From an uncultured Ruminococcus sp. (lineage in GTDB: Bacteria > Bacillota > Clostridia > Oscillospirales > Acutalibacteraceae), in NCBI GenBank assembly GCA_902764235.1, contig CACWVH010000009.1, forward strand, positions 19,193-83,192: 64,000 nucleotides of DNA, read 5' to 3'. A model generated the notes under the pieces. The model made no database searches. It was not told the DNA's origin and saw only the letters and a list, made by a program, of their open reading frames with translations. Positions 53,627 to 64,000 of this stretch are shown in pieces. The position numbers were made by a program, and so were the translations under genes. How positions within the stretch are numbered: position 1 is the stretch's first letter; the number at the start of each line of letters is the position of its first letter.

Positions 53627-54067
53627 TTAACCTTGTCCGAGATTATGCTTGATCTTATCCAGTGTCCTGAGAAATGCATCAAGCTCCTCATCTGACAGAC
53701 CGCTCCGGAGTTTTTCTTCATGTTCATCAACCTTTTCCATGGTTTTGCTTACATAATCCCATGCCTTTTCAGTCAGAGTAAGCTTTTTTAATCTTGCATC
53801 ATAGCTTACTCCCTCTCTGATGATATAGCCTTTTTTCTCCATAAGCTTGAGTATTCCGGAAACAGTAGATCGTCTGATTACAAAATAATTTTCTATATCC
53901 TTCTGAAAAATCTCCTTATCCTTATTTTCAGCGATATATCCAATTATCCAGCCATTTTTACCGGTCAGCTCATCGTCGCTGTCATTGATCTCATCAAGCT
54001 TCCGGTAATTTCTTTTCATAATATTATTGATCTTACTCAGCTCAATTCCTACATATCTTTCATACAT
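53627..54067 (-). CDS. MarR-family transcriptional regulator
   Basis: It has 146 residues from the ATG at 54067 behind CAGGGGGGTGAAAAA. The winged helix is clear: IFQKDIENYFVIRRSTVSGI (recognition helix) and KLMEKKGYIIREGVSYDARL (wing with the DxRxK-type motif), followed by the dimerisation helix. MarR proteins usually repress a neighbouring exporter and are released by small phenolic or drug-like ligands. It is first in the operon with the two ABC genes, so autoregulation is likely. Confidence 0.9.
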   Translation of the reverse strand: MYERYVGIELSKINNIMKRNYRKLDEINDSDDELTGKNGWIIGYIAENKDKEIFQKDIENYFVIRRSTVSGILKLMEKKGYIIREGVSYDARLKKLTLTEKAWDYVSKTMEKVDEHEEKLRSGLSDEELDAFLRTLDKIKHNLGQG

Positions 54068-54134
54068 TTTTTCACCCCCCTGATATGTAAACAAGCTGAC
54101 TGACTTCTATCCTGATGATCTGATAACAGGAATT

Positions 54135-54163
54135 ATACTATTCAGAAACCGTTCTTGTTTCAA
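54135..54163 (-). promoter_or_regulatory. Predicted promoter of the marR-ABC operon
   Basis: Minus-strand TTGAAA (54158-54163), a 17-bp spacer and TAGTAT (54135-54140). The downstream CCTG...CAGG segment (about 54111-54130) is only weakly symmetric but is where a MarR operator would be expected. Confidence 0.45.
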
Positions 54164-54235
54164 TAACACAGGATTGTCAGCAAGCTTATTGTTAGTACAC
54201 TTACATTTTACTACTATCCCCACAGTATGTCAATA

Positions 54236-54470
54236 CCGCCGCCAGCGCCGGCGTGCCGTCGGTGTCACGATTCACGGCTTAGTCAGTCTGAAAAAGTTTT
54301 ACTCGGGCACCGCCGGACTTTTTGAGCCTGAACTATTGACATCATTTTTGCTTCAGATGTCCAAGAAATATTTTACACTAATGTGGCGGAGTGCCTCCGC
54401 TGTCAATTTTGTGGGGAGGTCGCTGCGCTCTTGCCCACCAGCCCGATGATCTTGAAGCTGCTGCACAATG
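54236..54470 (+). repeat. Interspersed palindromic repeat, copy at 54 kb
   Basis: GCCGCCAGCGCCGGCGTGCC opens it, followed by TTCACGGCTTAGTCAGTCTG, TACTCGGGCACCGCCGGAC and TTTTTGAGCCTGAA, whose CTGAAAAAGT/ACTTTTTGAG arms can form a stem. A GTGGCGGAGTGCCTCCGCTG module follows, as at 15340. The remaining gap 54068-54235 holds only the marR promoter region. Confidence 0.75.
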
Positions 54471-54471
54471 T

Positions 54472-54496
54472 AAAACACCCCGGCACAGCCGGGGTG
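54472..54496 (-). terminator. Terminator of the orphan solute-binding protein gene
   Basis: CACCCCGGC (54476-54484) and GCCGGGGTG (54488-54496) form a 9-bp stem, with TTTTA following on the minus strand, 20 bp after the gene. Confidence 0.7.
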
Positions 54497-54515
54497 ACAT
54501 TTTCAGCGTTTTCTA

Positions 54516-55985
54516 TCAATTTAATGACTCATTATTCAATGTTTCACTGCCTGTACTTTCTTCGTTTACAACCGGTATTTTCAAAGGTATTTCTGACAAA
54601 TAGGTTATCAGCTGCTCCTCACTGTAATTTCCATTGTTTTCTACTATCTCGCTTCCGATGTTTTTCTGTGTAAGCATATTATAAAACTCCGAGCTGACAG
54701 AGTTTGCTATTATGTGCTCATACTGCCTCTGATCGTTCCATGCGCTGTAGAATATATCATTTGATATATCAGAGTATTCATTAAGTGCTGCCGCAGGTAC
54801 TACTCCGCAAGCATAGTACAATGCACTCTGTGATCTTTCACTGCTGAGATAGTATGCAAGAAGCTGTGATGTGAAGGGAAATTTTGAATACGGATTCACT
54901 CCGACTGCTTCATAGCATGAAAACGAATGTATCTGTGTCTTTGTATCTGATATATTCATAGCAGGAAGCTTAGCAATTCCTGTATTTTCCTCACCGATTA
55001 TATTTCTGATCTGAAAAGCTGTTTGTTTCTCAGTGATCGCTGCACATATCGTTCCATTGGAAAAACCAACAATGATCTTATCTTCATCTCCGCTTCCGAT
55101 AAAGCCCTTTCCCTGTAGATTTGCAAGTGAACATATGGCTTTTGCAGCAGCAACACCGTTTTTGCTGTTATATTCAATAGTCTGCATCGTACCGTCATTT
55201 TCAAGTGAACATCCTGCCGCAAGAAAAACTCCGGCGCTGTAATATGGATCATCAAGTGCATACAATACATTTTTTGAATATCTGGAGGCAATATTTATCA
55301 TTCTTTCAAGGTCGCTGATATCATTTTCTCCATAGATCCTTTTGTCATATACAAGAAATGTACCCTCAGCAGATGCTGTCGGCATTCCGTAAAGCTTATC
55401 ATTCATTGTAAAAGCTTTTATGCTTTCAGCTGTATCTGTATCAAGAGCAAATTTTCTGAGGTTATCATTGATACGTGCAGTAGCTCCTGAGCTTACAGCC
55501 TTTTCAAGCTTACTGTCATTATAGAAAAAAATATCAGGTGCATTCTGCGGAGAACTGATGTTTTTCTCTGAAGGATCGTCTGAGGTAAATATTTCAATAT
55601 TCAGATTGAACCTTTTATCGTCAGCAAAAAGCCAGACAAATTCACCTGCTATGCTCTTATACTCCTCAGCCCTTGATTTGCTGCATATAAGCTTTATATT
55701 TATTCTGTTATTATCAGCTTCGCTTTCCATCGCCTGCTTTATGGACTCAACCATTGAATCTCCGTACAGATCTCCTGGAGATTTACTGACTGCCTCATTG
55801 AAGATCTTCCAGCTTTTCATAATACTGTTGAGGTCATCACGGTTTTCAGCTGCCTTTTCAGTCTTGTTAGATGCTGAGTTTTCGGGAAAGATATCATATT
55901 TCTCTGTGCTCTCTGTACATCCTGCAAGGCTGAAAACACCTATCAAAGCGGAAAGAATAAAGCATATAATATTTTTAATTTTCAT
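54516..55985 (-). CDS. Extracellular solute-binding lipoprotein (orphan)
   Basis: It has 489 residues from the ATG at 55985, with CAGGAGCTGG upstream; a longer upstream reading starts before that site. A lipoprotein signal peptide ends FSLAGCTES (lipobox LAGC, Cys about 23). An acidic linker follows (about 24-60), then a two-lobe fold typical of family 1 solute-binding proteins. Motifs include PDIFFYNDS, KLYGMPTASAEGTFLVYDKR and AVGVNPYSKFPFTSQLLAYY. No permease or ATPase gene of the sugar type is adjacent, so the partner transporter is elsewhere. Ligand unknown; carbohydrate is the family default. Confidence 0.8.
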   Translation of the reverse strand: MKIKNIICFILSALIGVFSLAGCTESTEKYDIFPENSASNKTEKAAENRDDLNSIMKSWKIFNEAVSKSPGDLYGDSMVESIKQAMESEADNNRINIKLICSKSRAEEYKSIAGEFVWLFADDKRFNLNIEIFTSDDPSEKNISSPQNAPDIFFYNDSKLEKAVSSGATARINDNLRKFALDTDTAESIKAFTMNDKLYGMPTASAEGTFLVYDKRIYGENDISDLERMINIASRYSKNVLYALDDPYYSAGVFLAAGCSLENDGTMQTIEYNSKNGVAAAKAICSLANLQGKGFIGSGDEDKIIVGFSNGTICAAITEKQTAFQIRNIIGEENTGIAKLPAMNISDTKTQIHSFSCYEAVGVNPYSKFPFTSQLLAYYLSSERSQSALYYACGVVPAAALNEYSDISNDIFYSAWNDQRQYEHIIANSVSSEFYNMLTQKNIGSEIVENNGNYSEEQLITYLSEIPLKIPVVNEESTGSETLNNESLN

Positions 55986-56114
55986 TATTGACCAGCTCCT
56001 GTTGATACCCTGGTGTTTTTTCATTTATCTTCCACTGTTTATTATTGTATATTTCTTTGTCGAAATTATCATTCCGGTAATGTATATATTTAAAGCTTAT
56101 TTATACCTGACTAA

Positions 56115-56143
56115 ATTATAACATAACTTTATCATTTTCTCAA
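56115..56143 (-). promoter_or_regulatory. Predicted promoter of the orphan solute-binding protein gene
   Basis: Minus-strand TTGAGA (56138-56143), a 17-bp spacer and TATAAT (56115-56120), about 130 bp upstream of the start codon. Confidence 0.65.
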
Positions 56144-56192
56144 GAACTGCTGAGTATATTACTGTTATTTTTCAGCAGACTGCTGTTTATCT

Positions 56193-57107
56193 TCATTGTC
56201 CTTTTTTCTTATTATGTGTAAGCAGCCATGTACTGAATCTTCTTATCGGATGTTTTTTAACACTGATAGAGGTTATGGCCTCATAATATACAACATTTAC
56301 CTCTGCACCGAACATCAGGAATAATATGCACATATTAAGCCACACCATTATTACTGCTAATCTTGTAAGACCTCCATAAATTGAAAAGCCATTGAAATCA
56401 TCCACGTAAACCGAAATTCCGACTGATAATATAAACCATGCTGTCGCACTGAGTATTGCTCCGGGAAACTGAGTGATAAGACCGTATTTTTTCCTGACCT
56501 CCTTATCAAGATTAGGTACATTTTTATATATAAGTGCAAAAATGAAAACAAGATAAATATATACGATAAAATACCTCAGGTCATAAAGCAAATTATAGAA
56601 TTCCGGCAGGGATTTTATATACGGCGTAAGCAATTCGTTAAGAGTTCTGCCGAGAACAAATACACTCATAGTCACGAATAATATCAGCACAAGGATGAAT
56701 GTTATTATCATTGCCCGGAATCTCAGAATCAGCCAGTTTCTGTTTTCGTGGGTGTTATGCACTCTGTTCAGACCATTTATTATAGCATGGATTCCCTGAG
56801 CTGCCGACCATAGAGTCACGATCAGCGTTATCACTGAAATACCTGACGAATCCTTATACATATTGCTCAGAAAGGACGACATATATGCTGAATAATCTTC
56901 ATTCAGAACAAGTCCGAGGAAATCCTCGAGTGTTTCTTCAGGAATATGAAGATTCTGAAGTATTGATACTGCGAACATTGTCAGCGGCACAACAGCGAGT
57001 ATGAAATAGAACGAGCTTTGGCCGGCAATTGCAAAGATATTATCGTCCTGTATCTTGTTGTAAAAAGGGAGAAATGCATCCCGGAGCTTTTTCATTTTTT
57101 TCAGCAT
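56193..57107 (-). CDS. YihY/BrkB-family integral membrane protein
   Basis: It has 304 residues from the ATG at 57107 behind GAGGGGATAGTGAGTTT. About six membrane helices include IAGQSSFYFILAVVPLTMFA, SAAQGIHAIINGLNRVHNT and QFPGAILSATAWFILSVGIS, the family's typical segments. A polar C-terminus (KKHPIRRFSTWLLTHNKKKG) follows. The family was once called ribonuclease BN, but that activity belongs to another protein; transport or flippase roles are suggested. It follows the amino-acid ABC operon after a few bases on the same strand. Confidence 0.88.
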   Translation of the reverse strand: MLKKMKKLRDAFLPFYNKIQDDNIFAIAGQSSFYFILAVVPLTMFAVSILQNLHIPEETLEDFLGLVLNEDYSAYMSSFLSNMYKDSSGISVITLIVTLWSAAQGIHAIINGLNRVHNTHENRNWLILRFRAMIITFILVLILFVTMSVFVLGRTLNELLTPYIKSLPEFYNLLYDLRYFIVYIYLVFIFALIYKNVPNLDKEVRKKYGLITQFPGAILSATAWFILSVGISVYVDDFNGFSIYGGLTRLAVIMVWLNMCILFLMFGAEVNVVYYEAITSISVKKHPIRRFSTWLLTHNKKKGQ

Positions 57108-57114
57108 AAACTCA

Positions 57115-57996
57115 CTATCCCCTCTCAGAACAACAGTAATAAATATTATTATACAATACAAGCCTTGACCTGACGGTATCATATTTTGTCAGGACAAGGC
57201 TATGTATAAACCGGCGTACCGGATGCTTAAACTTTTTTCGGAGGACACTGCCAAGAAAACCCTTGAGTCTCTCTGTCTTTGGATTTGTAAATACGTTTTC
57301 AGGAGTATCATCCTCACGTATTTTTCCTCCGTCAATAAATATCGCTCTTGTTGAAACACCTTTCGCAAAGCCCATTTCATGTGTCACAACAACCATTGTC
57401 ATACCCTCACGGGCAAGGCGGTTCATTATATTGAGTACCTCATTTACCATTTCCGGATCAAGCGCCGAGGTAGGCTCGTCAAAAAGCATTACATCAGGAT
57501 TCATTGCAAGTGAGCGGGCAATCGCTACTCTTTGCTTCTGACCTCCGGAAAGCTGTGACGGATAGGAATCTGCTTTGTCCGCCAAACCTACCATTTCAAG
57601 CAGCTCCATTGCTTTTTGCTCTGCCTCAGCTTTTGACATAAGCTTAAGCTTTACAGGTGCAAGCATAATATTTTTTTTGACTGTCATATTATCAAAAAGA
57701 TTGAACTGCTGAAACACCATTCCTATCTTTTCTCTTACAAGTCGTCTGTCTACTCCTCTTTCTGTTATATCCTCACCCTTGAAAAATATACTTCCGCCCG
57801 TCGGTTCCTCAAGAAGATTGAGTGAACGGATAAAAGTCGATTTTCCGCAGCCTGACGGTCCTATTACAGAAATAACCTCTCCTCTGTGTATCTCCATGGA
57901 GATATCATCAAGAACTACATTATCACCAAAGGATTTGCTTAGATTTTCAACACGTATCAGCACTTCATCTGACGGAGTTTTTTTCTTATCGCTCAT
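57115..57996 (-). CDS. Polar amino-acid ABC transporter ATPase with C-terminal extension
   Basis: The ATPase drives uptake with the permease and binding protein upstream. Walker A is GPSGCGKST, the signature [15 protein letters not shown] and Walker [13 protein letters not shown], all canonical. The usual family end ([12 protein letters not shown]) is reached near residue 251. About 40 more residues follow ([16 protein letters not shown], ending YYCCSERG), encoded partly by a hairpin at 57161-57201. This suggests loss of the original stop codon. The ATG overlaps the permease stop by 11 bp (ATGAGCGATAA). Confidence 0.92.
57161..57201 (-). other. Hairpin inside the 3' coding extension of the ABC ATPase
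   Basis: AGCCTTGACCTGAC (57161-57174) and GTCAGGACAAGGCT (57188-57201) form a 14-bp stem with one mismatch. On the minus strand it is followed by TGTATTGTATAATAATATTT. It looks like a former terminator now inside the reading frame. Confidence 0.5.
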
Positions 57997-58954
57997 TTTT
58001 CTTCAATCTCCTCTCAAGCTTTGATACGCCTGCCGAGAGCAGGACTACGATAATAAGATATATCAATGCGACTGCTATAAGCGGAATGAATGCTTCATAT
58101 GTCAGGCTTCGGATAATATCTCCGCCTTTTGTCAGATCCATAAGTCCGATATAGCCTGAAATTGAAGTTTCCTTCAGGAGTGAAATAAACTCATTTCCAA
58201 GTGCAGGAAGGATATTTTTGAATGCCTGAGGCAGAATGATATTTATCATTGTCGTCGGGAAGCTCAGTCCAAGACTTTTGCCTGCTTCAAACTGTCCGTT
58301 ATCTATTGACATTATACCCGAACGAACCACCTCTGAAACATATGCTGCGGAATTTATACCAAATGCAATAATGGCAACGATCACCTTATCAATATCAACA
58401 GATGCAAAAATGACAAAATAAATAATAAGAAGCTGTATCATAACCGGAGTTCCTCTGATAACAGTGATGTACAGCTTTGCGATAAGATTCAGAACCGGGA
58501 GTGAGCCGTTTTTATCATATGCTACCCGGATGATTGCAAGCAGGAAGCCTATTACAATACCGATTATCATGGCAAAGAAAGTAATTATAACCGTATTGAG
58601 AAGACCCCATGCAAGGAATGTCCATCTGTTATCCTTGATAAAGTTATCATACATTCTCTGAATAAATTCCGGCTGAAGCTCTCCTGCGTCACCAAGGCTG
58701 TAAAAATCATCACCAACGGAGCTTTCTTCCACAGACTGCTCTGCCTTTTTTGCGTCATCCGCCGATTCTTTCTTTTCAGCACTCTTTGATGAGTCATCTG
58801 ATGCTTCCGTTTGTTTTTCAGCGGATGCTATATTCTGCACAGCTGACACCTCAGGCTCTGAAACGTCTGACGTTGCGCTTACGCCAAAGGACATAAGACA
58901 GAACAGAGCAGCTACTGAAATAATGACAGCTATAACCTTTTTTAACTTACTCAT
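57986..58954 (-). CDS. Polar amino-acid ABC permease with signal-like N-terminus and linker
   Basis: The core (about 110-322) is a HisM/GlnP-type permease with five helices: [20 protein letters not shown], the [20 protein letters not shown] motif, and the EAA loop [20 protein letters not shown]. Before it lie a hydrophobic signal-like segment (7-27, ending SFGVSATSD) and about 70 residues of Glu/Ser/Lys/Asp-rich linker. Typical permeases lack this part. It resembles the leader and linker of permeases fused to a binding domain, but no binding domain is present. The ATG at 58954 follows ACGGAGGAATACAAAAA. Confidence 0.9.
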
Positions 58955-58983
58955 TTTTTGTATTCCTCCGTTTTAAGAGAAAT

Positions 58984-59015
58984 GTTTTCCCGTACAGTTT
59001 AAGGTACGGGAAAAC
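58984..59015 (-). promoter_or_regulatory. Hairpin between binding-protein and permease genes
   Basis: GTTTTCCCGTAC (58984-58995) and GTACGGGAAAAC (59004-59015) form a perfect 12-bp stem in the 146-bp gap. Such hairpins often protect or partly end the upstream mRNA, giving more binding protein than permease. Confidence 0.6.
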
Positions 59016-59100
59016 AAATATGAAGCAAAGTAACCATGCTTATCCAAAACGGAAAACATCTGATACTAGGCATTTCTATTATTCTTTTTCCTGTTCAGGA

Positions 59101-59934
59101 TCATTTCTTTACAATGATAACCTGCTTGGAATTAGTGTAGCTTTCTGAGAAATTGATCTGCTTCTTTCTGTCCTCTGTTACAGTAAAGCCTGCAAGACCG
59201 ATATCAGCCTTGCCAGAATTAACTGCGCTGATGATAGAATCGAAAGCCATATCCTCTACCTTGAGCACCATGCCAAGCTTATCAGCAACTGCCTTGCCTA
59301 TTTCAACATCAATTCCGATTATATCGCTTGCCTCTTTATATTCATACGGCGGGAACTCTGCATTTGTTGCCATTACAAGATTATCACCCTCCTTGACTGT
59401 CTGGGTATAATGATAATCTCCGCCATTTTCGCCTTCAGCCGGAATATAGCTTGAAATGATCTTTTCAATAGTTCCGTCCTCCTTGAGTTCCTTGATAGCT
59501 TTGTTTACCTTATCAAGAAGCTCTGTGTTATCCTTTTTGATAACGGCTGCATAATCCTCATTTGCAAATTCCTCAGCAAGGATCTCGATGCCGTCATTCT
59601 GTGAAACAAAAACCTTTGCAGGCTGTTCATCAATAATAACGCAGTCGATCTTACCCTGTGTAAGTGCCATTACAGCATCAGCACCCTTATTATATCTTTC
59701 TACTGTTGCTTCCTTTACATCAGCAGCATAGATATCGCCTGTTGTTCCAAGCTGTACACCAATCTTTTTTCCTTTCAGATCATCAACTGTCTTGATCTTT
59801 GCAGAATCATCTGCAGCTGTTGTTGATGCAGCTGAGCTTTTGTCTGCCTCTGTCTTATTGCCGCAGGCGGTACATACTCCGACTGTAATCGCAAGTACAG
59901 AAGCAAGTGCCAGAATTTTTTTCATAGTTTTCAT
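59101..59934 (-). CDS. Amino-acid-binding lipoprotein, apparently circularly permuted
   Basis: It has 277 residues from the ATG at 59934 behind GGGAG; an N-terminal extension lacks a ribosome site. A lipoprotein signal ends VCTACGN (Cys 24). Residues about 47-164 match the half normally at the C-terminus of family 3 binding proteins: VDDLKGKKIGVQLGTTGDIY, CVIIDEQPAKVFV and the end LKEDGTIEKIISSYIP. After a Gly/Glu-rich linker (165-184), residues 185-277 match the normal N-terminal half: NLVMATNAEFPPYEYK, GIDVEIGKAVADKLGM and FTVTEDRKKQINFSESYTN. Both halves appear intact, so a functional permuted fold is likely. The operon includes permease and ATPase. Confidence 0.88.
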   Translation of the reverse strand: MKTMKKILALASVLAITVGVCTACGNKTEADKSSAASTTAADDSAKIKTVDDLKGKKIGVQLGTTGDIYAADVKEATVERYNKGADAVMALTQGKIDCVIIDEQPAKVFVSQNDGIEILAEEFANEDYAAVIKKDNTELLDKVNKAIKELKEDGTIEKIISSYIPAEGENGGDYHYTQTVKEGDNLVMATNAEFPPYEYKEASDIIGIDVEIGKAVADKLGMVLKVEDMAFDSIISAVNSGKADIGLAGFTVTEDRKKQINFSESYTNSKQVIIVKK

Positions 59935-59988
59935 AACTGATTCTCCCATTCAATTATTATTATCCGCAAAAAAATCACGTACATTGGC

Positions 59989-60017
59989 ATTATAGCATAG
60001 TTTTTACTCTTATTCAA
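59989..60017 (-). promoter_or_regulatory. Predicted promoter of the amino-acid ABC operon
   Basis: Minus-strand TTGAAT (60012-60017), a 17-bp spacer and TATAAT (59989-59994), about 55 bp upstream of the start codon. Confidence 0.7.
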
Positions 60018-60145
60018 GAATAATATGTAATTTTTTTCCTGATTTATATATTTTCAGTATTTTTTTATCTATAAACTTATCAAAAAAGCAAAGGACAGGT
60101 CAGCAAATATAAAAACTGCTTGCAGCGTGACGATGTAAGGGATGA

Positions 60146-60549
60146 TTAGTAAATAATTCTGCGAGTTTTGAATGAGTTGTAATCTACTGACATCAAAGTT
60201 CTGGTCTGAATAAATCAGAGCTGCGGGAATAAGAGCGGAAGTTCTGAACCCGGAGCGCAGCATAAGCGGAGCAATAGCTCATCGCAACACCGTCGGCACG
60301 CCGAGCGCTTGTTAGTATAAAATATTTCCGGGACTTTTCAATCGGAAATGATGTCAGCATTTCAGGCTCAAAAGATCCGGCGGTGCCCGAGAAAAACTAT
60401 TTCAGGCTGACTAAGCCGTGAATCAAGGGTCAAGCGTCACGCTGGCGGCACGGAAATCAATTTTTAAAATTTTCTCATATATATTTATCTTTTTTGATAC
60501 CGAAGGGGAGCGGGGGCGACCGGAAAGCCCCCGCATTTCGCTTCAAATG
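60146..60549 (-). repeat. Interspersed palindromic repeat with 3' module, copy at 60 kb
   Basis: The longest copy, inverted. It includes AATTCTGCGAGTTTT, CGGAAGTTCTGAACCCGGAG, AACACCGTCGGCACGCCGAG, GTATAAAATATTTCCGGGAC, ATTTCAGGCTCAAAAGATCC, TTTCAGGCTGACTAAGCCGT and CAAGCGTCACGCTGGCGG. It ends with the module TTTTTTGATACCGAAGGGG and hairpin GCGGGGGC...GCCCCCGC, shared with 30857-31090. Confidence 0.8.
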
Positions 60550-60579
60550 CAAGTAAAATGTAAGAAAAACGGTTAATTA

Positions 60580-60637
60580 ATATTTCTTTGTAAGAAAGTT
60601 GATTTCCGATATTTCTTTGTAAGAAAGTTGATTTCCG
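60580..60637 (+). repeat. Exact tandem duplication of 29 bp
   Basis: Two identical 29-bp units (60580-60608 and 60609-60637), each containing ATTTCTTTGTAAGAAAG and TTGATTTCCG, stand head to tail. Each unit has an internal CTTTGTAAGAAAG symmetry. GTGCGCTGGCGGCGG follows, similar to repeat-family GC blocks. Confidence 0.9.
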
Positions 60638-60657
60638 TGCGCTGGCGGCGGTTAGAC

Positions 60658-60686
60658 TTGACAATATTTTTGTATTCTGTTAATAT
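60658..60686 (+). promoter_or_regulatory. Predicted promoter of the 60.7-kb gene
   Basis: TTGACA (60658-60663), a 17-bp spacer and TAATAT (60681-60686), about 60 bp before the ATG, with AGGAGGG as ribosome site. Confidence 0.7.
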
Positions 60687-60746
60687 TATTTACAGGATAT
60701 TAATTAGTATCATTGTGAAATTTTTCATATTTCAGGAGGGCTGATT

Positions 60747-61340
60747 ATGGACGGAATGAAAAAACTTATTCTTACAACAATTGCGATCATTATTGCTGTT
60801 TCGGTTTTTGCTCTTATGCTTAATTTTACAAAAAGCGATATACAGAATCAGGTTAATGAAAATAACAATAAACCGCAGTCCTCTGCCGAAAAAAGCACTG
60901 TCGATATCGGACAGGATTACCTTTTCTTCAGCTATTATAAAAATATGTCCTATAATGCCGATGTCAAGGGATTTCTTATTGACAAAAACGGAAAAAGATT
61001 TGATTATGCACTTCTTATGAATTCTAAAGAGGTCATGCCGGAAGAAGCTCTGACCAAGGCTATTGAAAAACAGAAAGACCTGTCGGGAACTGATTTCATT
61101 CCTTCCGGAGATATTGAAAACCTTTACAGTGTTGTCAGTGAGATCAAGACTGATGCTGATTTCAAAACCGAGGAGCTCACAAAGGATCAGGGTACGACCA
61201 CTATCTACGCTCTTAAATATAATGACAATAAACCGGAGCTTGTAAAAATCTATTCCTACGGCGATAAGCTTGAAACCCCCACTGATGCAAATGCACTGGT
61301 TATAAGAAAATATTTTCTGAAAAAACTCAAAGACGAATAA
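60747..61340 (+). CDS. Membrane-anchored extracytoplasmic protein of unknown function
   Basis: The 197 residues begin MDGMKKLILTTIAIIIAVSV, an uncleaved anchor or signal segment (about 5-26). A Gln/Asn/Lys-rich linker (about 30-50) is followed by one soluble domain. That domain has ADVKGFLIDKNGKRFDYALL and a C-terminal TTTIYALKYNDNKPELVKIY. The end, ANALVIRKYFLKKLKDE, is basic. No cysteines are seen after the anchor. I do not recognise a family. It is a single gene between its own promoter and a strong terminator. Confidence 0.72.
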   Translation: MDGMKKLILTTIAIIIAVSVFALMLNFTKSDIQNQVNENNNKPQSSAEKSTVDIGQDYLFFSYYKNMSYNADVKGFLIDKNGKRFDYALLMNSKEVMPEEALTKAIEKQKDLSGTDFIPSGDIENLYSVVSEIKTDADFKTEELTKDQGTTTIYALKYNDNKPELVKIYSYGDKLETPTDANALVIRKYFLKKLKDE

Positions 61341-61368
61341 TAATCTTATATGATATCATAACAGGAAA

Positions 61369-61410
61369 ATCCTGCGGTACCATCTTCTTCGGTACCGCAG
61401 GATCTTTTTT
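61369..61410 (+). terminator. Terminator after the 60.7-kb gene
   Basis: ATCCTGCGGTACC (61369-61381) and GGTACCGCAGGAT (61391-61403) form a perfect 13-bp stem followed by CTTTTTTG. Confidence 0.9.
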
Positions 61411-61445
61411 GTTTCATAGAATTCCGATTCGGAGTCAAGCCATAA

Positions 61446-63791
61446 TCAGGTTACATTCAGATTCAATGTCTTATATGCGGTGTTGCCTGCATTGTCCTTG
61501 ATGATAACAGATATTTCATAGCCTGCAGCCTTTGTAGGAGTAAGTGTTGCTGTTGATTTGGAGCCGAATTCTGTGCCGATAAGATTCCATTTTGAATTTC
61601 CTGAGCGTCTGAAATAGAATGCATACTTATACGGTGAAATACCCTCTGACGCAATTGCTGTGATCTTCACAGCTGTTCCTGCCTTGACACTTGACGCACT
61701 AAGGGTTGAATTATTGACAAGAGCTGCATGAGTATTTACTACCCAGTTCTTTTCAGCTGTTGCGCCCTTGCTGTCCTTTACTATTACCTTTACATCATAG
61801 CTTACGTCAGCTGCTGAGGTTGTAATAGATGCTGTAGTGCTTGTTCCGTTCTCCTGACCGATAATATTCCACTTGGTGTTAGTCGTTCTCTTGAATTTGA
61901 AGGTATATGTGTACGGAGCTGTACCATAAGCAGCAGCTGCTGTTGCTGTTACCTTTTTGCCTGCTATTACATCAACTGCACTGATGCCTGACCGGTTCTC
62001 AAGCTCCTTTTCGCCGTAGATCGTATAAGTATTTGTCAGCGTTACTCCCCTGCTGTCCTTTACTGCTACCCTGACATTATAATCCTCGCTCACGGTAGGT
62101 GTGAGAGTTGCTGTGGTTTTTGAGCCGAATTCTGTGCCGATGGTGTTCCATTTTGAATTTGACGCACGTTTGAAATAATAAGCATATTTATATGGTGCAA
62201 GTCCGCCGAAGGCTTCTCCGTTGATGGTAATCGGAGAATTCTTCACGACATTTGTGCTGCTGAGTGTTGATCTGTTCTGGAGAGCATAGCAGCTCAATAC
62301 CTTGAACTGTTTTGTCGAAACAATATTATTGCTGTCCTTGACATTGACCTTGATATCAAAATATACCTGCTCTGCGCTGGTCTTGAAATTCTGATGATCG
62401 GACGCTATATAACCTGAGCTAAGCTCATTCCATTTTGAATTTGTTGACCTTTTGAAGTAATAAGCATATGTATAGGGTGCCTTGCCGCCCTCTGCTGATG
62501 CCATTATGGTAAGAGGCTGATTGGGAGCAAAGGTTTCACTTGCTGCATATGAATTGTTTTTAAGCGGTGTCGATTCCACTGTTACCCGGCAGGTTTTTGT
62601 GATACCGTTTGCTGTTACTGCCTTGATCGTTGCTGATCCGGCTTTGATTCCGGTGACTTTTCCGTTTTCTACAGTTGCTACCTTCGGATTACTTGAGGTC
62701 CAGACAAGTGTAGTATCCGTTGCATTTTCAGGAAGAATAGTTGCTGTTATTGTATCTGTCTGATCCGGAGCAAGCTTCATGCTTGTCTTATCAAAGCTGA
62801 GGCTTGTCTCACGAACGTTAGTAAGTATTGAAAATGCAAGTTGATTGTCAAAATACAGCTTCTGATCCTGCTCTCCTAGATAATATGCATTATACGGGTC
62901 GTCAAGATCGCCTATAGCTATCGAATAAGTAGTATAATACATATTGAAGCCCTTGCAGTATTTCTGCAGGTTTGAGCCTGAAGTACCATACACTGTGAAG
63001 CCAAGATATTTTGTATGTCCGAAATTATTATGCAGTGCAGTCTTTACTGATGAGAAATCATCCTCCTGCATTTTTCCGTAAACATAGTATTCCCCGTCTT
63101 CCCAGTATCCGTTTGTAAGATTCGGGCTGTATGACGTATCATGTCTGTAATAACCGAATGCAAAGGGCGCAAAATTCGCATCAGGATTCGGAATTACAAG
63201 CTTTGTCAGATTATCGCAGTAATCAAAGGCATCAGTTTCGATAAATGTACATGAATATGGAACATTGATGCTTGTCAGAGCTTTACAGTTCTTGAACAGA
63301 TTTGAAGGAAATCTGGTAACAGCTGATGACATATGAACGCTCTTCAATTTCGCACAGTTATAGAATGCACCGCTGCCAAGGCTTGTACAGGTATCGGGAA
63401 CAACCACATCAGTAAGTGCTGTCCCGCCAAATGCATAGCTGCCGATACTTTCAACACTGCCCATATCTATTGATCTGAGATTTTCGCAGCCTGAAAATGC
63501 AGAATATCCGATTCCTGTTACACCCTCGCCGAGTGTTACATACCTGATATCCTTATTTCCTGAGAATGAATAGCTGTCAATTTCGCCGTTTCCGACAATG
63601 GTAAGCTCGTCATCATCAAGCGTATAGGTAAGACCGTCTCCACAGCTGCCTGTAACTGCTTCTGCTGCTTTTACCGTAACAGTTCCCGGAAATACCTGGC
63701 TTTGCACAGCGACAAAGCCGGCAGACGCTGACATCAATGCTGCCATCGAAAATGCCAGAATCCTGTTCAGCTTTCTTATTTTCTTTTTCAT
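61446..63791 (-). CDS. Large secreted LRR / Ig-like / tyrosine-repeat surface protein
   Basis: The 781 residues begin with a signal peptide (about 1-43, MKKKIRKLNRILAFSMAAL). BspA-type LRR_5 repeats follow (about 55-205), then a linker domain (about 205-320). Next is a bacterial Ig-like Big_2 domain (about 325-405, TDTITATILPENATDTTLVW and VTGIKAGSATIKAVTANGIT). Four tandem repeats of about 92 residues complete it, each with the pattern APYxYAYYFKRxxNSKWN, resembling triple-tyrosine domains. It ends AYKTLNLNVT with no LPXTG or dockerin, so it is secreted or held by its repeats. The ATG at 63791 follows ATGGGAGG. It is probably an adhesion or binding protein. Confidence 0.87.
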   Translation of the reverse strand: MKKKIRKLNRILAFSMAALMSASAGFVAVQSQVFPGTVTVKAAEAVTGSCGDGLTYTLDDDELTIVGNGEIDSYSFSGNKDIRYVTLGEGVTGIGYSAFSGCENLRSIDMGSVESIGSYAFGGTALTDVVVPDTCTSLGSGAFYNCAKLKSVHMSSAVTRFPSNLFKNCKALTSINVPYSCTFIETDAFDYCDNLTKLVIPNPDANFAPFAFGYYRHDTSYSPNLTNGYWEDGEYYVYGKMQEDDFSSVKTALHNNFGHTKYLGFTVYGTSGSNLQKYCKGFNMYYTTYSIAIGDLDDPYNAYYLGEQDQKLYFDNQLAFSILTNVRETSLSFDKTSMKLAPDQTDTITATILPENATDTTLVWTSSNPKVATVENGKVTGIKAGSATIKAVTANGITKTCRVTVESTPLKNNSYAASETFAPNQPLTIMASAEGGKAPYTYAYYFKRSTNSKWNELSSGYIASDHQNFKTSAEQVYFDIKVNVKDSNNIVSTKQFKVLSCYALQNRSTLSSTNVVKNSPITINGEAFGGLAPYKYAYYFKRASNSKWNTIGTEFGSKTTATLTPTVSEDYNVRVAVKDSRGVTLTNTYTIYGEKELENRSGISAVDVIAGKKVTATAAAAYGTAPYTYTFKFKRTTNTKWNIIGQENGTSTTASITTSAADVSYDVKVIVKDSKGATAEKNWVVNTHAALVNNSTLSASSVKAGTAVKITAIASEGISPYKYAFYFRRSGNSKWNLIGTEFGSKSTATLTPTKAAGYEISVIIKDNAGNTAYKTLNLNVT

Positions 63792-63970
63792 TTGAATAAC
63801 CTCCCATCTGATAAGGTACTGAAAAGCATATACAGCTTAATCTCCTTATCACATACAGTACAAAAAATACGCTACAATTTAAAATAAACTGTATAATTTA
63901 GTTAGTGTCTGCTTTTTTCTCCCGAAGAGATTAGAAATACCGATAAACAGTAGAGTTTCAGGGTAAGACA

Positions 63971-63979
63971 TGGTATAAT
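63971..63979 (+). promoter_or_regulatory. Extended -10 promoter element pointing out of the window
   Basis: TGGTATAAT is a perfect extended -10 on the plus strand. The -35 region is weak. It would drive a gene starting beyond position 64000. Confidence 0.35.
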
Positions 63980-64000
63980 AAGTGCAAGGAAAAATACAGA

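Follow-up and report, generated by a model that had tools for sequence, protein, structure and literature searches.

A naturally circularly permuted family 3 substrate-binding lipoprotein and the apparent recurrence of such permutations in related gut and rumen bacteria

Introduction

Natural circular permutation is usually regarded as rare and old, and the hinge motion of the substrate-binding proteins of ABC importers has been well studied. A natural case among tethered ABC binding lipoproteins is TpMglB-2 (Tp0684) from Treponema pallidum, a circularly permuted type I sugar-binding protein; its authors describe a type I cluster B fold in which strands were moved within one lobe and a fourth hinge crossing was added, mention relatives in Gram-positive gut bacteria, and propose a subclass, Type Ic or Cluster Bc (PMC4990184). 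With regard to cluster F, to which the family 3 proteins belong, another study states that both ends of the native proteins lie on one lobe, and reports an engineered permutant, cpLAO-BP, that lacks one hinge strand, has (GGS)4 between its former termini and still bound lysine (PMC5087393). As a sensor fused to fluorescent proteins, it bound lysine at 107 µM compared to a quoted native value of 3 µM, i.e., 36 times more weakly (PMC5087393), so that a hinge-cut permutation may carry a cost. Tandem family 3 domains, SBD1-SBD2, fused to a permease are found in GlnPQ (PMC8025302). Among the matches listed in our literature searches, which covered few subscription papers, no natural permutation of a family 3 or cluster F protein was found, which does not show its absence from print.

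Here, we describe such a protein, encoded in a 64,000-nucleotide stretch of DNA from an uncultured Ruminococcus sp. (hereafter, the window), together with its relatives, whose loci are numbered with the prefix L. A natural permutation of a type I sugar-binding protein and an engineered one in cluster F are already known; what is added is recurrence and a second permuted order. Our main reading, to which we give a probability of roughly 0.9, is that the window protein is a functional binding lipoprotein, circularly permuted, that serves an amino-acid ABC importer; its lobe order, operon context and purifying selection have been shown, its fold is a prediction, and its ligand, closing, docking and transport are inferred.

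Results and Discussion

The halves of the window binding protein stand in swapped order

For comparison, the canonical protein was cut into three pieces, namely A (the N-half), B (lobe 2) and D (the hinge-2 strand plus the C-terminal helices), which makes the canonical order A-B-D and that of the window protein, cut at hinge 1, B-D-A. The positions of hinges 1 and 2 were assumed from GlnH and not computed. Signal peptide, tether, canonical C-half of SBP_bac_3, linker and canonical N-half follow each other along the protein, whose open reading frame (stop included) might alternatively start at an upstream ATG at 59949, giving a product 5 residues longer:

59101..59934, minus strand: family 3 substrate-binding lipoprotein, circularly permuted, order B-D-A, 277 aa (phmmer and Pfam)
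59866..59934, minus strand: lipoprotein signal peptide, residues 1-23, with predicted acylated Cys 24 (by eye)
59800..59865, minus strand: flexible tether, residues 24-45, the last few belonging to hinge 1 (low pLDDT; by-eye comparison with canonical L187)
59581..59799, minus strand: piece B, residues 46-118, corresponding to canonical lobe 2 (alignment and profile)
59443..59580, minus strand: piece D, hinge-2 strand and C-terminal helices of lobe 1, residues 119-164 (alignment and profile)
59383..59442, minus strand: new linker between the old C- and N-termini, residues 165-184 (linker comparison with B-D-A relatives)
59104..59382, minus strand: piece A, residues 185-277, the N-terminal portion of lobe 1, its last strand being hinge-1 QVIIVKK (alignment and profile)

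A phmmer search of the PDB aligned two blocks of the protein with AncQR (4zv1) in reversed order: residues 46-162 matched chain residues 108-229 (i-Evalue 8.4e-24) and residues 186-277 matched chain residues 12-104 (i-Evalue 1.9e-21), with only 3 chain residues, at the hinge, remaining between both blocks. The order N-half to C-half is therefore absent, since the C-half (46-162) lies ahead of the N-half (186-277). Membership of the family by profile was met, with 119.8 bits for Pfam SBP_bac_3 against a cut-off of 26.4, split into two stretches. These results bear out a sequence-only reading of this DNA, which had proposed swapped lobes behind a normal lipoprotein signal, with a linker at about residues 165-184 connecting the old termini: the SBP_bac_3 alignment, run as a check for a normal lobe order, gave the swapped one instead, the linker was found with the same extent, and residues 1-23 with a likely Cys 24 were recognized as a signal by eye, relatives showing clearer lipoboxes (e.g., LAGC in L008). 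It had further held that no conserved block was lost, and indeed both halves are kept and the conserved blocks of family 3 are retained, as judged by sequence comparison without binding data. The conserved columns within these blocks are, we presume, ligand-binding.

A profile search of the PDB (threshold 1e-5) returned 106 sequences, of which the best 60 were examined. The position of the best stretch agreed with normal lobe order in 59 of them, a few being single-domain constructs that are uninformative on order. The remaining one was 6h30 (the GlnPQ tandem SBD1-SBD2), with a collinear match spanning the boundary of its two domains; read together, the SBD1 C-half and the SBD2 N-half give the window order, although both GlnPQ domains are in normal order and fused to a permease, whereas the window protein is free-standing.

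Taken with its canonical counterparts (type II, cluster F: GlnH, HisJ, ArgBP; AncQR 4zv1), the window protein has both halves, the conserved blocks and the operon partners in common, and differs in its B-D-A order, in its ends at hinge 1 and in an extra linker on lobe 1. It resembles TpMglB-2 in being a natural permutation of a tethered ABC binding lipoprotein (PMC4990184), but it is a type II amino-acid protein whose cut removes one of two hinge crossings. It is not of Type Ic or Cluster Bc, given its SBP_bac_3 (type II) profile match and its different cut site. The closer parallel is cpLAO-BP, also of cluster F, cut at one of two hinge strands and with its old termini linked, which nevertheless is a hand-made sensor with weaker binding and a 12-residue linker, compared to mostly 19-21 residues in the natural proteins. 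Since that hinge-cut cluster F version works (PMC5087393), the natural proteins repeat an engineering trick.

The window genome contains three SBP_bac_3 loci, the window protein being one. In the other two (L038, contig 167, split over two frames; L039, contig 7), the C-half is ahead of the N-half and joined to a permease, as read partly by eye.

The predicted fold leaves a single hinge strand

An AlphaFold2 model of residues 25-277, built from 54 rows, reached a pLDDT of 90.9 and a pTM of 0.84, with pLDDT below 50 only in model residues 1-18 (protein residues 25-42). Foldseek, which is bound to sequence order, gave 508 PDB matches at 1e-3; throughout the best 50 of these 508, the TM-score to the query did not exceed 0.46, and rank 1 was the tandem GlnPQ with an rmsd of 19.5 Å. 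A canonical family 3 protein would be expected to match many PDB entries closely, although no control model was made. A viral structure library yielded no useful match.

On our reading, the chain would begin at hinge 1 with lobe 2 (B), and hinge 2 would lead it to the C-terminal lobe 1 helices (D), after which the linker of about 20 residues on lobe 1 would close the old N- and C-termini; piece A would then complete lobe 1, and the chain would end on the hinge-1 strand. A normal flytrap of two lobes should thus result, able to close on a polar amino acid that it binds, where the fold is predicted and binding and closing are inferred. The two canonical hinge crossings would be reduced to one covalent strand with both termini at hinge 1, and the lipid tether would pull on lobe 2 near the hinge instead of on lobe 1. 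By inference, the permutation may affect hinge mechanics or permease docking.

The gene heads an amino-acid importer operon

The binding protein gene is followed on the same strand by a permease gene (BPD_transp_1) and then an ATPase gene (ABC_tran), as identified with Pfam, which agrees with the ABC importer context claimed in the sequence-only reading:

58655..58954, minus strand: signal peptide and acidic linker preceding the permease domain (comparison with relatives; inference)
57989..58654, minus strand: amino-acid ABC permease transmembrane domain, permease residues 101-322 (Pfam BPD_transp_1; NCBIfam TIGR01726)
57115..57996, minus strand: ABC ATPase of the same importer (Pfam ABC_tran; best NCBIfam GlnQ)

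The permease passes the NCBIfam domain model TIGR01726 (71.0 against a cut-off of 42.2), and its nearest NCBIfam equivalogs (cystine permease, GlnP) all scored below their own cut-offs. Binding protein and permease are separate genes in the window and fused in some relatives; in L012-L016, a B-D-A binding domain occupies the position of the signal and acidic linker of the window permease, which is perhaps, by inference, a former fusion that lost its binding domain and kept the signal as a scar of domain loss. The best NCBIfam model for the ATPase is GlnQ, at 318 bits and under the cut-off of 379. We name no ligand, because all NCBIfam models of substrate-binding proteins (lysine/arginine/ornithine, glutamine, cystine and others) fell below their cut-offs. 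A riboswitch search with Rfam over 54000-64000 yielded one match up to an E-value of 1, at 26.6 bits, short of the gathering score of 66, and inside another open reading frame. At 57115-57182, the ATPase frame shares 68 bases with the start of a BrkB-like gene, whose true start may be further in.

The same order is kept in independent genomes

A search of the genus matched the window protein in 43 of 64 genomes at 1e-20. Free orthologues with the same order were found in 12 other genomes of the genus, at 69-90% identity (13 with the window protein). We also read the best 80 of at least 549 relatives retrieved from the genome_contigs collection: the C-half came first in 79 of these 80, as free copies, permease fusions or arrays, although this sample is biased toward B-D-A because the query itself is permuted. 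These 80 best loci included 62 free C-N open reading frames; in 78 loci a permease part lay within that gene or followed it, and an ATPase followed in 75, none being found in the remaining few within the stretch examined. The same order beside permease genes, the sign that had been proposed for related genomes, was hence encountered. Named strains among the C-half-first loci were Roseburia porci (L053), Acetitomaculum ruminis (L068) and R. inulinivorans DSM 16841 (L076); the start of L076 may be broken, since only 2 residues precede the C-half in frame. In a phylum-wide scan at 1e-40, the profile of the window protein matched in only 9 of 398 genomes, which weakens our reading.

The window protein is under strong purifying selection, with dN/dS values of 0.03-0.06 against five orthologues, two of the five pairs being near dS saturation, where one of two methods gave no value. 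This bears on two rival explanations. The first, already named in the sequence-only reading as what would overturn it, is that two halves were joined in the wrong order by an assembly or binning error. The window does lie within a draft assembly of 254 contigs, 90.65% complete, but independent genomes contradict this explanation, comprising the 12 free orthologues of the genus and a closed chromosome with the same order, NZ_CP074197.1 (Ruminococcus sp. FMBCY1, L086), and the reading frame has no internal stop in addition to its low dN/dS; we thus consider assembly error ruled out, with a negligible chance of being right. The second is that the gene is what remains of a tandem array, its two half domains having ceased to make a binding protein. 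Arrays of such units exist, and several triple ones have a diverged N-half in the first unit; nonetheless, the free copies in scores of genomes, the strong purifying selection together with a confidently predicted fold, and the conserved columns in the presumed ligand-binding blocks make a decayed remnant highly improbable and leave a working permuted protein as our reading.

Three cyclic orders occur within one subfamily

Besides A-B-D and B-D-A, the same subfamily has proteins in the order D-A-B, in which the cut separates B from D immediately ahead of hinge 2. This third order came to light through proteins that matched only D through A in a class-level search (341 genomes, 162 matching at 1e-30), and was found in 29 loci from 29 of the 341 class genomes (L159, L178-L186, L189-L207). 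A permease gene follows in 28 of these 29 loci (none was found in L182), an ATPase gene lies within the stretch examined in 26, being upstream in L194 and L201, and all 7 D-A-B proteins inspected by eye, from 7 of the 29 loci, start with a lipoprotein signal. Core B-D-A copies were found in 19 of the 341 class genomes, so permuted copies of either order occur in at least 48 of those sampled; the figures of 29 and 19 are minimum values because only retrieved loci were read. Locus counts per order are not frequencies, since queries and retrieved regions favoured some orders.

The gap between A and B in canonical proteins is mostly 3-5 residues, and the D-to-A linker is mostly 19-21 residues (15-49) in B-D-A and 17-25 in D-A-B proteins. 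Over reordered pieces, the window protein is 67% identical to its nearest canonical relative, L187, and pairs of different order reach 79% identity (A-B-D L240 and D-A-B L185). The window genus itself also has canonical proteins, one free (L284) and others fused (L292-L296, L298-L302, L304-L306), in which piece B was unmatched by profile; their presence there also weakens our reading.

More distant B-D-A lines comprise L155, L160, L229 and L231-L235, where piece D was inferred from a gap in L231 and L235. L255-L257, L259 and L260 resemble B-D-A proteins ending slightly past hinge 1; the profile found D and A only, and piece B was recognized by eye in the three of them inspected. The profile of the distant group matched 123 of 249 genomes in a phylum search, which is no measure of permutation because 16 of the 30 loci returned were read as canonical.

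Two minor observations concern further loci. L253 and L254 show an apparent third cut site, inside lobe 2, with the order B2-D-A-B1; the profiles located D, A and the initial portion of B, and the rest of B, which precedes D, was recognized only by eye. In L209, L210, L212, L213, L215, L219 and L220, permeases beside canonical proteins have 238-265 residues before the transmembrane part that are unmatched by the piece profiles.

The tree of the core subfamily requires at least six order changes

The units compared numbered 264 (182 B-D-A, 52 A-B-D and 30 D-A-B), and 248 of them entered the alignment; those left out were short or clashed in name with a second open reading frame of their locus. 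From 111 representatives, 110 were placed in a quick tree and 82 in a careful one, after removal of 28 long-branched, misread or distant rows; owing to this removal, the counts of origins apply to the core subfamily alone. The more distant B-D-A lines (L155, L160, L229 and L231-L235) were not part of the careful tree. Two apparent units were rejected: L032 as A-B-D was a misreading from a broken frame, excluded from both whole-unit trees and still within the linker counts, and L230 as D-A-B was an artefact of a missing piece, kept in the linker counts and the quick tree and left out of the careful tree.

The careful tree of 82 reordered units required at least 6 order changes. The D-A-B rows formed three clades, each beside canonical sequences, namely L218 (100/100), L223 plus L240 (100/100) and L236 (95/84), the last joined over long branches, and a single D-A-B clade was rejected with a p-AU of 1.4e-80. 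The window protein fell into a clade of 27 B-D-A rows with moderate support (86/78), a second B-D-A clade (L170, L172, L175, L176) adjoined canonical L242 (97/86), and three further B-D-A rows were unresolved; a single B-D-A clade was rejected more weakly (p-AU 0.013). Several points weaken our reading. The bootstrap of this tree was not settled (correlation 0.987), and L066 moved from beside D-A-B and canonical rows in the quick tree to within B-D-A in the careful one. Both half-trees, with few columns, placed the window protein nearest to B-D-A rows; the A-half tree alone leaves the origins unresolved, and its starred branches force only 1 change per group.

These data suggest that permutation of this kind arose several times among related bacteria of the gut and rumen, at two or more cut sites. 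The converse history would be a single ancient permutation, after which canonical order was recovered by slippage within arrays. No direction can be assigned to the order changes on the tree, an array could slip from B-D-A to A-B-D as easily as the other way round, and a single B-D-A origin was only modestly rejected; this history is nevertheless unlikely, though not to be dismissed, given the three separate D-A-B clades, each beside canonical sequences, the rejection of a single D-A-B clade, and the normal order of 59 of the best 60 PDB rows (of 106). Several separate permutations remain the preferred account.

Tandem arrays suggest a route to permutation

Arrays of two or three B-D-A units fused to a permease are common in the window genus, and arrays are known in both phases, either as three canonical N-C units plus permease (L078) or as two to three permuted C-N units plus permease. 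L078, the one canonical locus among the 80 best, reads N-C-N-C-N-C-permease; its units are very similar by eye, suggesting a recent duplication and a possible intermediate. As a separate observation, the N-half of the first unit is strongly diverged in the triple arrays L017, L020-L022, L024, L028, L029 and L031, and its ligand binding may be lost or changed.

The occurrence of arrays in both phases makes duplication followed by trimming a likely route. We lean, short of confidence, towards an inferred origin in which the binding domain was duplicated into a tandem array and the first N-half and last C-half were then lost, which left phase-shifted units; the same route with another boundary would yield D-A-B. 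No lineage passing from canonical array through permuted array to free protein was seen among the loci read.

Arrays also raise the question of which halves fold together. Gaps between array units measure 4-27 residues, and the D-to-A linker within a unit is mostly about 20. If halves paired between neighbours, the N-half would join the C-half of the next unit in arrays, and free copies would form a domain-swapped dimer. In triple arrays, one gap from N-half to next C-half is only 4-11 residues, near the canonical hinge gap; however, the other gap of the same arrays is 18-27 residues, and the within-unit linker is mostly 19-21. An AlphaFold2 model of a two-unit array (L095), built from 8 rows that were overlapping excerpts of 5 loci, had a pLDDT of 86.5 and a pTM of 0.51. 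Canonical 4zv1 was superposed on it over 235 columns with an rmsd of 27.1 Å and a TM-score to the target of 0.49; as the first N-half and second C-half are the sole collinear canonical stretch, we infer that they are not one domain in this model. Pairing between neighbours is accordingly a poor candidate, and hidden canonical proteins, suggested by inter-unit gaps of 3-4 residues, were given little weight because other gaps are long and the L095 model is against them. Array units are instead inferred, on a predicted structure, to be beads of permuted proteins whose halves across a unit boundary lie apart. A swap between chains is not excluded for the window protein.

A broader hypothesis, which we put forward tentatively and at slightly less than even odds, is that, in Clostridia of the gut and rumen and in related bacteria, the family 3 binding proteins form an evolutionary ring: arrays on a permease would let the unit boundary slip, and every cyclic order (A-B-D, B-D-A, D-A-B and perhaps the lobe-2 cut in L253 and L254) would have emerged time and again as a working protein, either free or fused, while ends at the hinge would put the tether or permease on the moving part, possibly altering closing, release or docking and being selected for it. 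With natural homologues in all three orders (A-B-D, B-D-A and D-A-B), it can be tested directly whether hinge connectivity determines affinity, docking and the rate of closing, and the duplication route can be tested on arrays of either phase. In annotation, permuted binding proteins are split or scored too low by profiles and structure searches that follow sequence order, and natural templates now exist for biosensors that are at present built on hand-made permutants.

Neighbouring sequence

Two further features of the window lie beyond the operon. A 781-residue protein at 61446-63791, with apparent leucine-rich and Ig-like repeats, matched the NCBIfam model of adhesin HupY only weakly, scoring 42 bits where the cut-off is 1250. 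A 29-base unit (atatttctttgtaagaaagttgatttccg) occurs twice in tandem at 60580-60637, between the binding protein gene and an open reading frame at 60747.
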